Assembly: GCA_001799195.1 (NCBI GenBank)
Contig: MGSU01000267.1
Span: 350-6,166, forward strand
Reading direction: 5' to 3'
From: Deltaproteobacteria bacterium RIFOXYA12_FULL_61_11
GTDB lineage: Bacteria; Bdellovibrionota_F; JAHFAK01; YA12-FULL-61-11
DNA: 5,817 bases
The notes below the pieces were generated by a model. It was not told where the DNA came from and ran no database searches. It saw only the letters and a list, made by a program, of their open reading frames with translations. Every line of letters begins with the position of its first letter. Position 1 is the first letter of the stretch. A program made the position numbers and the translations under genes. Positions 392 to 5,817 of this stretch are shown in pieces.

Positions 392-1105
392 TCAATCGTC
401 GTCGTCATCATCATCGTCGTTGTAGGATTCCATGCAACTGTACCAAGGATGACCGTCGGCGACGCAGGCTGCATAACTCTCGCCGGCGTCGAGACAGTTG
501 TACCAAGGGTGGCTGTCCCCGAGGCAGGCTTCGTACCCGGCGCCCGCGGCAAGGCAGTTGTACCAGGGGTGGCCATCGGTGAGGCAGGTTTCGTAGCCGG
601 CGCCGGCGGCAAGGCAGTTGTACCAGGGGTGCCCGTCGGCAAGACAGGCCTTGTACCCGGCTCGGGCGGCGAGGCAGTTGTACCAAGGATGGCCGTCGGC
701 CAAACAGGCTTCATAGCCGGCGCCGGCGGCGACGCAGTTGTACCAAGGATGACCGTCTGTGAGACAGGCGTTGTAGCCGGCTCCCGCGTTCACGCACGAG
801 TACCAGGGATGGCCCTGCAGGGCACAGCTTATGTAGCCGAGGCGCGCATCCACACAGGAATACCATGGATGCCCTTGGGCGACGCAGGTTGTATAGGCCA
901 GTCCATTCCCCAAACAGGTTCCGATGGCTTCTTTTACCAAGCAGACTTCGGCCTCCTGTTGGGCTCCCTCGAGCGCTGCGATCTGTTCGGCACTCGGAGG
1001 TTCCGGGTCGGACAGGAGGTTACATGCTGGACCGGAGGCAAATCCGAGGAGGAAGAGGAAGCCCAGGTTGTGTATTGCCAGGAAGACCACCATCCGCTTC
1101 GACAT
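392..1105 (-). CDS. Putative lipoprotein of tandem Cys-containing decapeptides (8 x 20-residue HPWY units) with poly-Asp tail
   Basis: I do not recognise this family. The 237-residue product begins with an export signal: MSKR, then a hydrophobic core (about residues 6-23), then S-G-P-A-C with C28 as a loose lipobox. Residues 29-59 are a short, probably helical stretch with C55. Residues 60-229 are 17 decapeptides with no insertion or deletion, consensus [GPA]-[YW]-x-x-C-[LV]-A-x-G-x. Alternate decapeptides differ, making eight 20-residue units with near-invariant Y2, C5, G9, H10, P11, W12, Y13 and C15. Cysteines fall at 64, 74, 84 and every ten residues to 224. Eight aspartates end the protein. 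The ATG at 1105 is preferred over an in-frame TTG at 1144 because GAGGTG lies four bases upstream and the signal peptide then starts naturally. Regular disulfides outside the cytoplasm or metal binding are both possible, and neither is shown. The gene is separated from the upstream operon by 163 bases and probably has its own promoter. Confidence 0.85.
   Translation of the reverse strand: MSKRMVVFLAIHNLGFLFLLGFASGPACNLLSDPEPPSAEQIAALEGAQQEAEVCLVKEAIGTCLGNGLAYTTCVAQGHPWYSCVDARLGYISCALQGHPWYSCVNAGAGYNACLTDGHPWYNCVAAGAGYEACLADGHPWYNCLAARAGYKACLADGHPWYNCLAAGAGYETCLTDGHPWYNCLAAGAGYEACLGDSHPWYNCLDAGESYAACVADGHPWYSCMESYNDDDDDDDD
395..418 (-). repeat. GAY triplet run encoding eight C-terminal aspartates
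   Basis: Eight consecutive GAC/GAT codons sit directly before the TGA at 392-394 of the Cys-repeat lipoprotein. The codons are mixed (four GAC, four GAT). Length changes by slippage would stay in frame. A free acidic tail could bind cations, but no role is shown. Confidence 0.85.
419..928 (-). repeat. Coding tandem repeat: 17 x 30 bp, paired into eight 60-bp units (419-898)
   Basis: The 60-base period is exact from 419 to 898 with no length variation, and the first decapeptide (899-928) extends it. Each 60-bp unit translates to xYxxCxxxGHPWYxCxxAxx and splits into two related decapeptides, GYEACLADGH and PWYNCLAAGA, which share the aromatic at position 2 and C-L-A-x-G at 5-9. Units 4, 5 and 6 from the N-terminus are most alike and units 1 and 2 most diverged, which suggests expansion from the middle. 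The His-Pro-Trp-Tyr codons vary synonymously between units (CAT/CAC, CCT/CCC/CCA, TAC/TAT). Confidence 0.92.
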
Positions 1106-1109
1106 AAGA

Positions 1110-1115
1110 CACCTC
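1110..1115 (-). promoter_or_regulatory. Ribosome binding site GAGGTG deciding the start of the Cys-repeat lipoprotein
   Basis: GAGGTG on the minus strand ends four bases before the ATG at 1103-1105, with the GAGG core six bases away. The in-frame TTG at 1142-1144 would add 13 residues (MLFTKNVLEPRCL) in front of a normal signal-peptide n-region, which argues against it. Confidence 0.6.
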
Positions 1116-1268: not shown

Positions 1269-2732
1269 TCAGAGGCCGGAAAAATATCCGACGACATCGA
1301 GCAGGTAGTGGGTCGTACTCTGGGTGTGGATACAGACTCCGCCCTCAGTGCCGATCTGGACCAGGGCACTGCTCGCCCGGGTCATTCCTTGGGTGTAGTT
1401 CAAGGAGGAGGTCTCCGGCGGGGGTTGTCCCTGGGAATAGATGGAGAGGAAGCCGTTCTCAGTGGGATCGACCGCGGTCAGGTTGACGGCAACAACCCGG
1501 GCAGTTGCGGGAAGTCCGTTGTGGTCGGCGAGTGGAAAACACTGGGTGGAACCGGCGAGAGGTTGGGCTTGCCCCCGGGTGTCGAGACGTCGGTATGGTG
1601 CGATCGGAATATAGGTCGAGGTCGAAGAGAAGTATCCGTGAAGGTCGAGGATGAAGTGGGAGGCCGCGGAGGTGTAGAGACAGGTCTTGAAGTCCGTCCC
1701 GATGGGATAGATGACACCGTTGCTGACCGTGTGGCCGGGGGAGTAGTTCAAGCTGGAGGTCGTCGGTCTCGTGGTCCCATTGGCGAAGACGATCAAAAAG
1801 CCGGCTTCGGTGGGGTTGACTGCGACGAGCTGGCCCACCACGGCCTTGGCCCTTTCGGGAATCCCGCCGGAACCGGTGACCGCAAAACAGTGGGTGCTGC
1901 CTGCTGCGGGGAGAGTCTTGTCGCGGGTGTCCTCGAAGCGAAAAGGCGTCACCGGGACATAGGCCGAGTTGACCGGGAAATAGCCGGTGATATCGAGAAC
2001 CACATGGGTGGTGGTCAGGGGGGCGAGGCAGACCTTGCCGTCCTGACCGACCGCGACGAGGGTCCCGTTGTTCGCTACTTGCCCCGCGGTGTAGTTCAGC
2101 GCTGGTATGGTTGGTTTGGCCGTTCCCGAGGGATAGAGCAGGAGGTAGCCAGGCTCCAGGGGAGTGACCGCGGTCACGTTGACGGCCACAGCGGTCACCG
2201 TGTCGGGGAGAGCATTGGTTCCCGCGAGCTGCACGCACCTTGGAGTATCTGGGACGAGGGACTCTCCACTCCGGGAGTCGAGAGCGCGGAAGGGTGGCAG
2301 CGGGATGTAGGACCCCGCCGGGGTGATCCCAGTGTCGGCAGGATTGCCTTGGTTACCGGGGAGGGGAGGATCAGTCTCCCCATAGTGTTCCGCTGCTTCA
2401 GGGTCTTCCGGAACCTCATGTACCTTGGGTTCTTTAGCGCCTGGTTGCCCTGGGGGCATTGTCGTCTGGTTTGTCGCCGTGGACGGATCGCTTGAAGTGC
2501 TGGCAGGATTGGTCGGTAGCGGTGGATTCTTGGGGGAGAGTTCTGCTCCCGAGGGGGGCGACGTTGTCTCGTCGGAGACGAAGGGACTGTCGAGGGATCC
2601 CTTGTCGTCGTCGCAGCCGAAGGTCCCAGCACCACTCAGGAAGAGCAACAAGGGCACGCTCAGGGGGAACGCCCATCCTCGATGGTTTGTGTGTTTCGCC
2701 CAGGAGCGTGTACGCAAGGAACGGAAGTTCAT
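1269..2732 (-). CDS. Lipoprotein with Pro/Thr/Ser-rich linker and three ~111-residue xPxRxxDTR...GYF modules
   Basis: The 487-residue product has a long basic n-region (R4, R7, R9, K13, R19), a hydrophobic core at about 20-35, and the lipobox-like T-F-G-C with C40 followed by DDDK. Residues 44-140 form a low-complexity Pro/Thr/Ser/Glu linker. Three modules follow at 142-252, 257-368 and 373-484. Each opens with YIPxxPxRxxDTR (DSR in the first), contains AVxVNxTAVxPxExGFLxxY and SLNYxxGxxxxN, and ends LDxxGYF. Each has one cysteine pair exactly 69 residues apart (166/235, 282/351, 398/467). Similar DTR...NYTAGQ...DVxGYF repeats are familiar to me from uncharacterised secreted actinobacterial and deltaproteobacterial proteins, but I know no proven function. 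Its ATG overlaps the GH3 stop as ATGA with only a weak RBS, so translational coupling is likely. A cell-surface carbohydrate-binding or scaffolding role beside the hydrolases is inference. Confidence 0.85.
   Translation of the reverse strand: MNFRSLRTRSWAKHTNHRGWAFPLSVPLLLFLSGAGTFGCDDDKGSLDSPFVSDETTSPPSGAELSPKNPPLPTNPASTSSDPSTATNQTTMPPGQPGAKEPKVHEVPEDPEAAEHYGETDPPLPGNQGNPADTGITPAGSYIPLPPFRALDSRSGESLVPDTPRCVQLAGTNALPDTVTAVAVNVTAVTPLEPGYLLLYPSGTAKPTIPALNYTAGQVANNGTLVAVGQDGKVCLAPLTTTHVVLDITGYFPVNSAYVPVTPFRFEDTRDKTLPAAGSTHCFAVTGSGGIPERAKAVVGQLVAVNPTEAGFLIVFANGTTRPTTSSLNYSPGHTVSNGVIYPIGTDFKTCLYTSAASHFILDLHGYFSSTSTYIPIAPYRRLDTRGQAQPLAGSTQCFPLADHNGLPATARVVAVNLTAVDPTENGFLSIYSQGQPPPETSSLNYTQGMTRASSALVQIGTEGGVCIHTQSTTHYLLDVVGYFSGL
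1281..2309 (-). repeat. Three tandem ~345-bp coding modules in the linker lipoprotein
   Basis: The modules occupy 1977-2309 (first, N-terminal), 1629-1964 (second) and 1281-1616 (third), separated by four-residue joints such as PVNS and SSTS. The period is 115-116 residues. They are diverged at DNA level but keep the DTR motif, the LNY motif, the paired cysteines and the terminal GYF, so they are old duplications held by selection on the protein. Confidence 0.85.
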
Positions 2733-4939
2733 GGCCTCGCGGGGAGCATGGTCAGGGCAGTCTCCAGCCCGCCGATCGAGCTGTTGCCCACGTAGATCAG
2801 GAATTGGCCGGGTTCGACGAGGAAACGGCCGTCGTCCTGGTAAAAGCCGAAGGCCTCTGCTCCAAGGGTGAAGTTCACCCGTCGGTGTTCCCCGGTTTCC
2901 AGGGAAACCCGCTGGAAGCCTTTGAGTTCGCGCACCGGACGGGTACGACTGGCTGCGAGGTCGCGCACATAGACCTGTACGACCTCGGTGCCGGCGCGAG
3001 GACCGACGTTGCGGACCTCGACCTCGAGGGTTACCTTTTCGTCGGGTCGCAGGCTTTGCGAGCTGAGGGTGAGGTCAGCGAGCGCGAAGGTGGTGTAGCT
3101 CAACCCGTGGCCGAAGGGGAACAAGGCTCCATCCGGGCAATCGAGGTATTTCGAGGTGTACTTGTCGGTGCCGGCGGGCCGCCCGGTGCTCTTCCGGCCG
3201 TAATAGGCGGGTTGACCCGAACAGTGAGGGAACGCCGCAGGCAGTTTGCCGCTGGGGTCGACCTCGCCGAAGAGGGCAGCAACGATGGCAGGGCCGGACT
3301 CGAGGCCGCCGAACCAGGCTTCCAGGATAGCCGGAGCGAGCGTTGCGACTTCGGGGATGGCCAGGGGACGGCCGTTCAGCAGCACGACGGCGGTCGGTTT
3401 CCCGAGGGCTAGGATTGCACGCAACACGTCGAGTTGACGCCCGGGCAAACCGATGAAGGCGCGTGAGGCGGCCTCACCGCTCTGTGCCGCGCTCTCCCCG
3501 AGGACCACGGTCACGGCGTCGGCGCGCTTCGCGGTGCGGACGGCTTCGGCGAGTTGGGCGTCCGTGGTGCCCGAGACATCTCCGCCTCCGGCGTAGGTAA
3601 TGTGCGGACCGCCGAGCTTCTCCCGGGCGCGGAGTGCGGCGAGGAGCGTGAGGACGTCGTCGGCGCGACCGTCGCCGCTCCAGGAACCCATGGCAGAGAG
3701 GCGGTCGTCGGCCAGGGAGCCGATCACGGCCAGGGATCGCAGGTTCTTAGGGAAGGGCAGGACGCCGCCCTCGTTCTTGAGCAGGACCAGGGAGCGGACT
3801 GCGGCTTCGCGGGCTAGGACTCGGAATTCGGGACGGGCAAGGGTCTCTGCTTCCCGTTGCTCGTCGGCATACGGATGGTCGAAGAGACCGAGACGGAATT
3901 TCCAGCGCAGGATCCGGCGCACCGCCTCGTCGATCACCGAGAGGGGGACGGCGCCGGAGGTGACGAGGTTCTCGAGGTTCTCCGCATAGGTGCGGCTGAC
4001 CATTTCCATTTCCACCCCCGCGGTCAGTGCGAGACGCGCCGCCTCTGCTCCGGACGGAGCGAACCCATGGGCGACGAGTTCGAGGACCGAGGTGTAATCG
4101 CTCACGACAAACCCCGAAAACCCCCACTCCCGGCGGAGGACCGAAGTCAGGGTCGAAGCATTGCCCGAGGTCGGAACGCCGTTGAGGTCGTTGAAAGCGC
4201 TCATGAAGGTGGCGACTCCCGCTTCGAGCGCCGCTCGGAAGGGAGGGTAGTAGATGTTGCGCAAGGAGCTGGCCGAGAGTTCGACCCCCGCGTAGTCGCG
4301 CCCGCCTTCGGCCGCCCCGTAGCCGACCCAGTGTTTCGCGCAAGCCAAGATTTTATCGGGTTCCGAGGGATCTTTTCCCTGAAAGCCGTACACGCGGGCG
4401 CGGGCATAGGCGGAACCGAGGAAGGGGTCTTCTCCGGCACCTTCGACGATGCGGCCCCAGCGGGGGTCCCTCGCGATATCGACCATCGGTGCGAAGGTCC
4501 ACTTGAGGCCGGCTGCCGCTGCCTCGGCAGCCGCAACCGCGGCGGTGCGTTCGGCGAGGTCCGGGTCCCAGGCCGAGGCTTCGGCCAGGGGAACCGGGAA
4601 AATGGTGCGGTACCCGTGGATCACGTCGAAGGCGAACAGGATGGGGATGCCCAGGCGCGAGCCTTCGACGGCCGCCCGCTGCAGTTCGTTGACGACGCGT
4701 GCTCCTCGCACGTTCAGGGTTGAACCTAGTCTCCCCTGCCGGGCTAGTTCGAGGTGTTCTTTTCGAAAACCGCCCTCGCTGAAGCCGTCGAGCTGTTGGA
4801 GTTGGCCGAGTTTCTCGACCAAGGTCATTGTGGCGAGTAGGGTTTCCACCCTTTGCTCGTGCGAGACCGTTCCCGCAGAGACCGGGGGAAAAAGGAGCAG
4901 AAGGCCCAGACAACAGATGGTAAATTGAATTAATTTCAA
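2729..4939 (-). CDS. Exported glycoside hydrolase family 3 beta-glucosidase (BglX-like)
   Basis: GH3 enzymes remove terminal beta-linked glucose (or similar sugars) from oligosaccharides with retention of configuration. From a TTG at 4939 the product is 736 residues, near the 750-765 usual for BglX-type enzymes. Residues 1-22 form a signal peptide ending V-S-A before GTVSHEQRVE. The TIM-barrel domain (about 30-375) shows FAFDVIHGYRTIFPVPLAEA (D105), ARDPRWGR, CAKHWVGYG (K202, H203) and the nucleophile segment GFVVSDYTSV with D281. The alpha/beta sandwich (about 385-605) carries LVLLKNEGGVLPF and the probable acid/base E489 in QSGEAASRAF. FPFGHGLSYTTF (607-618) leads into a C-terminal fibronectin-III-like domain. 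The frame stays open to an ATG at 5188, but that extension lies inside the upstream gene, has no protein-like features and would bury the signal peptide. The gene starts four bases after the upstream stop and overlaps the downstream ATG. Substrate linkage cannot be read from sequence. Confidence 0.95.
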   Translation of the reverse strand: MKLIQFTICCLGLLLLFPPVSAGTVSHEQRVETLLATMTLVEKLGQLQQLDGFSEGGFRKEHLELARQGRLGSTLNVRGARVVNELQRAAVEGSRLGIPILFAFDVIHGYRTIFPVPLAEASAWDPDLAERTAAVAAAEAAAAGLKWTFAPMVDIARDPRWGRIVEGAGEDPFLGSAYARARVYGFQGKDPSEPDKILACAKHWVGYGAAEGGRDYAGVELSASSLRNIYYPPFRAALEAGVATFMSAFNDLNGVPTSGNASTLTSVLRREWGFSGFVVSDYTSVLELVAHGFAPSGAEAARLALTAGVEMEMVSRTYAENLENLVTSGAVPLSVIDEAVRRILRWKFRLGLFDHPYADEQREAETLARPEFRVLAREAAVRSLVLLKNEGGVLPFPKNLRSLAVIGSLADDRLSAMGSWSGDGRADDVLTLLAALRAREKLGGPHITYAGGGDVSGTTDAQLAEAVRTAKRADAVTVVLGESAAQSGEAASRAFIGLPGRQLDVLRAILALGKPTAVVLLNGRPLAIPEVATLAPAILEAWFGGLESGPAIVAALFGEVDPSGKLPAAFPHCSGQPAYYGRKSTGRPAGTDKYTSKYLDCPDGALFPFGHGLSYTTFALADLTLSSQSLRPDEKVTLEVEVRNVGPRAGTEVVQVYVRDLAASRTRPVRELKGFQRVSLETGEHRRVNFTLGAEAFGFYQDDGRFLVEPGQFLIYVGNSSIGGLETALTMLPARP

Positions 4940-4943
4940 AGTA

Positions 4944-5817
4944 TTACTCTCTTCGTGGGGGTAATGCCAGGGGGATCTCTTCGCCCCGGAGCGGTCTTCC
5001 GAGCACTCCGTGAGCATAGGATTCGGCGAGGAGCGCTCGGAACGCTCTTTCCCGACCGGTTCTCCGGAGGTAGTCGCGGGCAAGACCGCCACTTCCGCCG
5101 AGCAGGGCGAGGACCACGGTTGCTTTTGCATCCCAAGTGGCGACCGGAGCGATCCCTGGTCCACGTGCCGAGGCTGCTTCGGCTCCACCGAGAGGTCCTT
5201 GGATCCCCGGATGTTGGAGCATGCGGAGATACCAGGCCAGGCCGACGATCGGGTCCAGCATGATCACCGGGAAGGCCGCGTAGGGGACGGCGACGTCGGT
5301 GCGTGCTCCCGACTGCGAGGCGGCCTCGGGTAGGCCGAGGTTGCTCGCATAGGTGAGGGGACCGGTCTGGGGGAGATGGGCCGAGGCGAAGAGGCCCGGG
5401 ATACCGCGTTCGCGGGAATAGATGGTCCTGAGGCGCTGGTTGTTGTGCAGCACCCGTCGTACCAGGGGGACGTCGAGGTAGGGGGCTTGCAACAGGTTCC
5501 ATTCTTCGTGCGAGGAAAAATACCAGCCCTTGCGCACGGTCACGGGCCCTGCCGCGGTCTTCACGTCGATGAGTTCAGGCGGTTGGGCGCGCCACACCTG
5601 TCGCACTTGGTGCCGCGTAGGGCGGGCGTACAAGGACCAGAAGAGGGTGAACAGTTCGCCCTCGAAGGGGTCTTTGAGGTAGTAACCCTCGGGAGGGCTC
5701 GAATAGGTCTGTTCGCGAGGGGGGCGTTCGGGGCGTGGGATGCTGACCTCTCCGCGCAGCAGGCCGGTCGTCGGGGCGAAGAACATCCGGTGGGCGTTGG
5801 AAGCCATCAGGGCGATC
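4944..5817 (-). CDS. C-terminal part of a probable glycoamylase-like (PF10091-type) carbohydrate-active protein, 5' end cut
   Basis: The frame is open to the window edge (I-A-L before the M at 5807) and lacks any signal peptide, so the true start is outside; 290 residues are visible. Counting from that internal M, PFEGELFTLFWSLY (47-60), IPGLFASAHLP (136-146), DVAVPYAAF...DPIVGLAWYLRML (171-197), GIQGPLGGAEA (201-211) and TWDAKATVVLALLGG (224-238) follow the order I recall for glycoamylase-like domains (PF10091). That fold occurs in GH144 endo-beta-1,2-glucanases and in cyclic beta-1,2-glucan synthases: a WEG/FEG-like helix, a short loop, APYAS..A, then GxxGPYGF. The match is from memory and partial, and several positions differ. 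In the family these are (alpha/alpha)6-barrel glucan-active proteins. Four bases separate its TAA from the GH3 TTG, so the two are surely co-transcribed, consistent with paired endo- and exo-action on a beta-glucan. A DUF3131-type or wholly different helical-barrel protein remains possible. Confidence 0.6.
   Translation of the reverse strand, partial: IALMASNAHRMFFAPTTGLLRGEVSIPRPERPPREQTYSSPPEGYYLKDPFEGELFTLFWSLYARPTRHQVRQVWRAQPPELIDVKTAAGPVTVRKGWYFSSHEEWNLLQAPYLDVPLVRRVLHNNQRLRTIYSRERGIPGLFASAHLPQTGPLTYASNLGLPEAASQSGARTDVAVPYAAFPVIMLDPIVGLAWYLRMLQHPGIQGPLGGAEAASARGPGIAPVATWDAKATVVLALLGGSGGLARDYLRRTGRERAFRALLAESYAHGVLGRPLRGEEIPLALPPRRE
4947..4953 (-). promoter_or_regulatory. Ribosome binding site AAGAGAG supporting the TTG start of the GH3 gene
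   Basis: Purine-rich AAGAGAG on the minus strand lies seven bases before the TTG at 4937-4939, directly before the TAA stop (4944-4946) of the upstream gene. The Shine-Dalgarno is therefore inside the end of the preceding reading frame, as expected for tightly packed operon genes. Confidence 0.5.

Follow-up and report, generated by a model that had tools for sequence, protein, structure and literature searches.

Regularly placed cysteines are known to tie helical repeats together in HcpB/HcpC and CagY of Helicobacter (PMC2581425, PMC3851747). HcpB and HcpC are exported alpha-alpha repeat solenoids with regularly placed disulfides (PMC2581425, PMC3851747), as we propose here for a cysteine-ladder protein of Deltaproteobacteria bacterium RIFOXYA12_FULL_61_11, but their repeats span 36-38 residues rather than 20, and the ladder protein has much shorter predicted helices and two Cys in every 20 residues. 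The middle repeat region of CagY, a surface protein of Helicobacter pylori, likewise carries regular Cys in short helical repeats, and Cys affects the assembly of its isolated repeats (PMC2581425); the CagY motifs, however, are 38-39 residues long, Lys/Glu-rich and part of a secretion system, whereas the ladder gene has no such context on a contig of only 6,166 bases. The Hcp/Sel1 and CagY repeats are the nearest systems in working principle, and the ladder protein is a member of neither. No Sel1 or TPR match was found at E values as high as 1 (whole protein) or 10 (its repeats), and the period is 20 and not the 36-38 residues of Sel1-like/Hcp proteins. Helix pairs, as expected of disulfide-tied alpha-alpha hairpins, are predicted at pLDDT 42 and 65.

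Two other systems share parts of the pattern. Twin-CX9C (CHCH) mitochondrial proteins (PF16860, NDUFB7), to which the earlier note on this DNA had likened the spacing, have the same CX9C interval, a Tyr three residues before Cys and a weak local similarity, but they consist of two longer helices with four Cys in total, whereas here 17 Cys run on with G-H-P or G-A-G breaks between them. PF16860 scored 15.3-19.2 bits against a cut-off of 26.4, aligning 24 of 44 positions over one CX9C pair. The predicted unit helices are only 4-9 residues long, hold at most one Cys each and end near Gly, with Gly/Pro breaks between the Cys, so a CX9C pair would not lie within one continuous helix, and CHCH membership is rejected. 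The idea that the Sel1-repeat protein COA7 has CX9C pairs is contradicted by PMC6505684. Choline-binding (CW_binding) repeats also recur every 20 residues and place WY and Gly similarly within the unit, a likeness chosen by the search pattern, but they form beta-hairpins and lack the ten-residue Cys ladder; the Pfam CW_binding profile does not match the protein.

The ladder gene lies on the minus strand of the window, the whole 5,817-nucleotide stretch analysed, with the following features:

1111-1115, minus strand: GAGGT, a Shine-Dalgarno-like stretch read directly from the sequence, with the ATG 5 nt downstream
392-1105, minus strand: the whole ladder gene, 237 amino acids plus stop (translation; codon-position and pN/pS pattern)
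1025-1105, minus strand: signal sequence, residues 1-27, KR followed by a hydrophobic core and SGPA (translation; putative export)
1022-1024, minus strand: C28, a possible lipidated Cys (non-canonical SGPA-C) or the first residue past a signal peptidase I cut
941-991, minus strand: residues 39-55, a predicted N-terminal cap helix with C55 at its end (AlphaFold, low confidence)
899-928, minus strand: residues 60-69, AIGTCLGNGL, first step of the ladder (C64) by Cys spacing, outside the 20-residue units
419-898, minus strand: residues 70-229, eight 20-residue units with consensus GYEACLADGHPWYNCLAAGA and invariant Y2, C5, H10, P11, W12, Y13 and C15
395-418, minus strand: residues 230-237, a C-terminal tail of eight Asp (translation)
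2729-4942: neighbouring gene for a GH3 BglX-like beta-glucosidase (family match)

The Cys of the 237-residue protein fall at positions 28, 55, 64, 74, 84 and so on to 224. Translation confirmed the previously noted ladder of 17 consecutive Cys (64-224) at an exact spacing of ten residues without an indel, its residues 60-229 corresponding exactly to window positions 419-928. When the mature sequence was shuffled 20,000 times, no spacing-10 run exceeded 5. The secure repeat unit is 60 bp (20 residues), present in eight copies over residues 70-229, and Tandem Repeats Finder reports a period of 60 with 79% matches. Seven of the 20 columns (those given above) are invariant in 8/8 units, and the codons of these residues vary synonymously among the units, except for the single Trp codon. 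Differences between the 20-residue units fall at codon positions 1, 2 and 3 in the ratio 168:108:263, with pS 0.62, pN 0.24 and pN/pS 0.38. The codon-position excess, the pN/pS and the invariant columns together support a real protein on the minus strand; the antisense ORF at 317-1174, which shares the codon boundaries and would place the excess of differences at position 1, is rejected by the same pattern. Since synonymous sites have diverged far while the invariant residues were kept, the duplications are old and have been held under purifying selection, rather than arising from recent slippage. The earlier proposal that each unit descends from two homologous decapeptides of 30 bp fared less clearly. 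The two halves share the register YxxC/WYxC, and their amino-acid identity there, 22.5%, is the highest among ten circular registers, but at the nucleotide level the consensus identity of 50% is within the range of a codon shuffle (39% expected, P = 0.12), so a common ancestor is possible and weakly supported by the sequence. The Asp8 tail is the sole match in the genome to a pattern of seven Asp followed by a stop.

The ladder protein is unusual, and its family is undescribed within reach of the tools used. As the earlier note had anticipated, it matches no known family: neither Pfam nor NCBIfam gave one at its cut-off (CHCH, zinc knuckle and thionin matches were all sub-threshold), PHROGs gave nothing below E 0.04, and a profile search of PDB sequences gave nothing below E 0.1. 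The best PDB hit (E 0.16) was human alpha-defensin (3lo2/1zmh), which aligns to window positions 419-898 with CX9C-X9-C, a Tyr near one Cys and a Trp near the next, and is probably a coincidence. No bacterial CX9C repeats turned up in the literature that was searched. Relatives were found neither elsewhere in the same genome, nor in one other genome of its phylum, nor in plasmids and phages. Sequence and profile searches of 386 broad genomes, and a profile search of 377 genomes from the phylum to which a Polyangiaceae bin belongs, yielded no relative either; apart from the ladder gene, the profile recovered nothing but a single unrelated linker with spaced Cys. Scans of 84,980 species genomes with peptide patterns and with a threefold WYxC pattern, which would miss highly diverged ladders lacking WYxC, returned no relative; nor did tblastn-confirmed scans of species-genome contigs and viral contigs. 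Among the matches listed when viral contigs were scanned with a generic ladder pattern were Cys-rich frames of minisatellites, and two narrower patterns again gave minisatellite frames. A match in phage PaBG is antisense to an annotated gene, and weak matches elsewhere, those in G060 included, prove to be minisatellite frames, stop-bearing or very short. An Omnitrophota 30-bp minisatellite (L173, about 4349-4621, minus strand) reads in one frame roughly as (RRQSHPWYQC)n with an internal stop, apparently by chance. The threefold WYxC scan of species-genome contigs gave CW_binding-type repeats, out-of-frame minisatellites or matches with no in-frame ORF. Its only coherent in-frame proteins were repeats from gut Clostridia, which we take to be of choline-binding type (CW_binding-like) from their TGW...WYY pattern; at eight loci (L145, L152, L154, L158, L159, L163, L165 and L170) several 20-residue repeats in succession have a Cys (WYYC), which amounts to one Cys per 20 residues. 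We read the resemblance to the ladder as convergence plus search bias.

An apparent signal sequence makes export of the ladder protein likely. The canonical lipobox is L-[AS]-[GA]-C; the site before C28 reads S-G-P-A-C, in which the Cys and the Ala at -1 are present but Pro at -2 departs from the standard pattern. Of the earlier description as a lipoprotein, therefore, the export signal stands as likely and the lipobox match does not, and lipidation of C28 is uncertain from the sequence. This bears on the even Cys count (18) claimed for the mature repeat region, which holds only with C28 lipidated or otherwise outside the count. The same genome carries two VKOR-DsbA fusion genes (listed as C338 and C133) with active sites CPAC and CPHC, encoding separate proteins (L183, 706-1968, minus strand; L184, 1459-2688, plus strand), and two more DsbA-family matches. 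According to PMC11208910, disulfides of exported proteins are made by bacterial DsbA and DsbB/VKOR enzymes. With the fusions in the genome, cystines rather than free thiols are the default expectation for the ladder protein, an argument that carries some risk because the assignment of so short a contig to a draft genome (87% complete) does.

Structure prediction with AlphaFold2 gave pLDDT 42 and pTM 0.19 for the mature sequence alone, and pLDDT 64.7 and pTM 0.41 when the final four units were modelled on an alignment of the preceding units of the same protein, which is not independent evidence. At low to medium confidence, both runs predict that each unit contains a pair of short helices, at about residues 2-8 and 11-17, and neither predicts a strand. 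Foldseek found no fold match for the model in PDB or BFVD, which for a model of such low confidence is no evidence of a new fold. In both halves the conserved non-polar positions lie at -3, 0 and +1 relative to Cys, a spacing that suits one helix face, and Gly is common at +4. Hydrophobic moments near 80-110 degrees exceed those near 170, and over the seven to nine positions per helix are significant alone only for helix B, 11-17 (P = 0.014). Helices of seven residues with Gly ends are of marginal stability. With helices 2-8 and 11-17 antiparallel around a Gly-His turn, C5 would face C15; on the model, the next turn would bring C15 and C25 face to face with much the same ease, and geometry alone cannot choose the pairing register. 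Counting favours the register within units, because pairing 55-64, 74-84 and so on to 214-224 consumes all 18 Cys after C28, whereas the shifted register strands C55 and C224. We therefore lean towards disulfides within each unit, which depends on C28 being outside the count, for example by lipidation. The small disulfide-braced solenoid of 20 residues per turn that the earlier note had suggested fits the helix predictions, the conservation and the VKOR-DsbA oxidases, but is matched by no fold in PDB or BFVD.

We give about an even chance that this is an exported envelope protein whose orphan solenoid is built from mini alpha-alpha hairpins with one disulfide each. The gene product would be exported to the envelope, its body formed by a small repeat solenoid in which each 20-residue unit folds into a pair of very short helices, YEACLADG and PWYNCLA, that run antiparallel. 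A Gly-His turn would join the two helices of a unit and an AGAG loop would part neighbouring units. C5 and C15, opposed across the turn, would form one disulfide per unit, making eight rungs, and C55-C64 would add a ninth at the N-terminal cap, accounting for every Cys after C28. Conserved Tyr, Trp and Leu may pack between adjacent helices, the cystines and aromatics together holding helices too short to stand alone, and the VKOR-DsbA fusions would oxidise the protein after export. The resulting rigid rod could act as an envelope scaffold or offer a surface for ligands, and its likely contact points are the acidic Asp8 tail and the invariant edge of His-Pro-Trp-Tyr.

Apart from the GH3 gene and a three-repeat exported protein, the other contig neighbours of the ladder gene are unknowns. 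The latter (487 residues; 1269-2732, minus strand) has three copies of a module of about 110 residues ending in LDVVGYF/LDITGYF, a possible lipobox GTFGC that is likewise non-standard, and no above-cut-off match in Pfam or NCBIfam. For a 290-residue protein encoded upstream of the GH3 gene (4944-5816, minus strand), Pfam, NCBIfam and PHROGs gave no match; it may be a partner that acts on glycans. At the left contig end (L182, 2-202, minus strand) lies the start of a membrane protein, presumably resembling AI-2E family transporters, and the adjoining stretch is masked as N. The GH3 enzyme and its neighbours hint at extracellular polysaccharide work, which does not prove a link to the ladder protein.

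Other readings of the ladder account for parts of this evidence. The main rival for function is a metal-binding array, in which C-x4-H-x4-C in each unit would give eight Cys2His sites for Zn, Cu or Fe, sequestering or buffering metal in the envelope, with the acidic tail as an added low-affinity site. The invariance of His10 in 8/8 units, midway between the two Cys, the Asp8 tail and a sub-threshold match to the zinc knuckle PF13917 speak for it, but that score is far under the cut-off, the two VKOR-DsbA fusions of the genome lead one to expect oxidised Cys in an exported protein, the equally invariant Trp, Tyr and Pro have no metal role, and the identified neighbour is a glycosidase and not a metal gene; we consider the array unlikely. 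Alternatively, disulfides could join molecules into a cross-linked surface polymer or sheath, as has been considered for the CagY repeats, which multimerise via Cys when isolated (PMC2581425). The regular, rod-like ladder would suit this, but pairing within one molecule is favoured by the even number of Cys and by C5 facing C15, and the genome holds no further copies, which makes such cross-linking quite unlikely.

It is improbable that the repeat is instead a beta-hairpin binding cell wall or polysaccharide in the manner of choline-binding proteins, with WYxC on one strand and the Cys of the first half replacing the tryptophan of TGW. The gap-free 20-residue register shared with the Clostridia repeats of the threefold WYxC scan (for example DGSHWYYCDASGAM), an hhalign score of 31 equalled by only 2 of 200 column permutations, and the adjacent GH3 beta-glucosidase, which hints at glycans, are in its favour; however, those repeats were preselected by a pattern with W, Y and C at spacing 20, which biases the score, no Pfam CW_binding match appears even at E 10, both AlphaFold models are all-helical and the hydrophobic moments do not fit strands. 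That the gene encodes a disordered exported linker, or is a decaying orphan ORF without a fold, would agree with the failure to find homologues and the weak AlphaFold confidence, but is very improbable given a pN/pS of 0.38, seven invariant columns, the third-position excess of differences and 17 Cys without an indel.

The ladder protein is known as a single gene in one draft genome, which limits the weight of the finding. Most likely it works as an oxidised rigid rod in the envelope, a scaffold or binding surface, although this biochemical role is one we infer. A new repeat fold is possible but doubtful: an alpha-alpha solenoid whose unit, at 20 residues, is unusually small and stable only through a cystine of its own, or else a Cys-His rod that is redox-switchable or loaded with metal. 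With the ladder protein, a bacterial phylum that has hardly been sampled gains an undescribed repeat. If the model of disulfide-tied mini hairpins is true, the repeat would be unusually small and regular for a helical one stabilised by disulfides; it could then serve as a natural template in the design of cystine rods and as a clean test of the minimum length of a helical hairpin held by a single disulfide.
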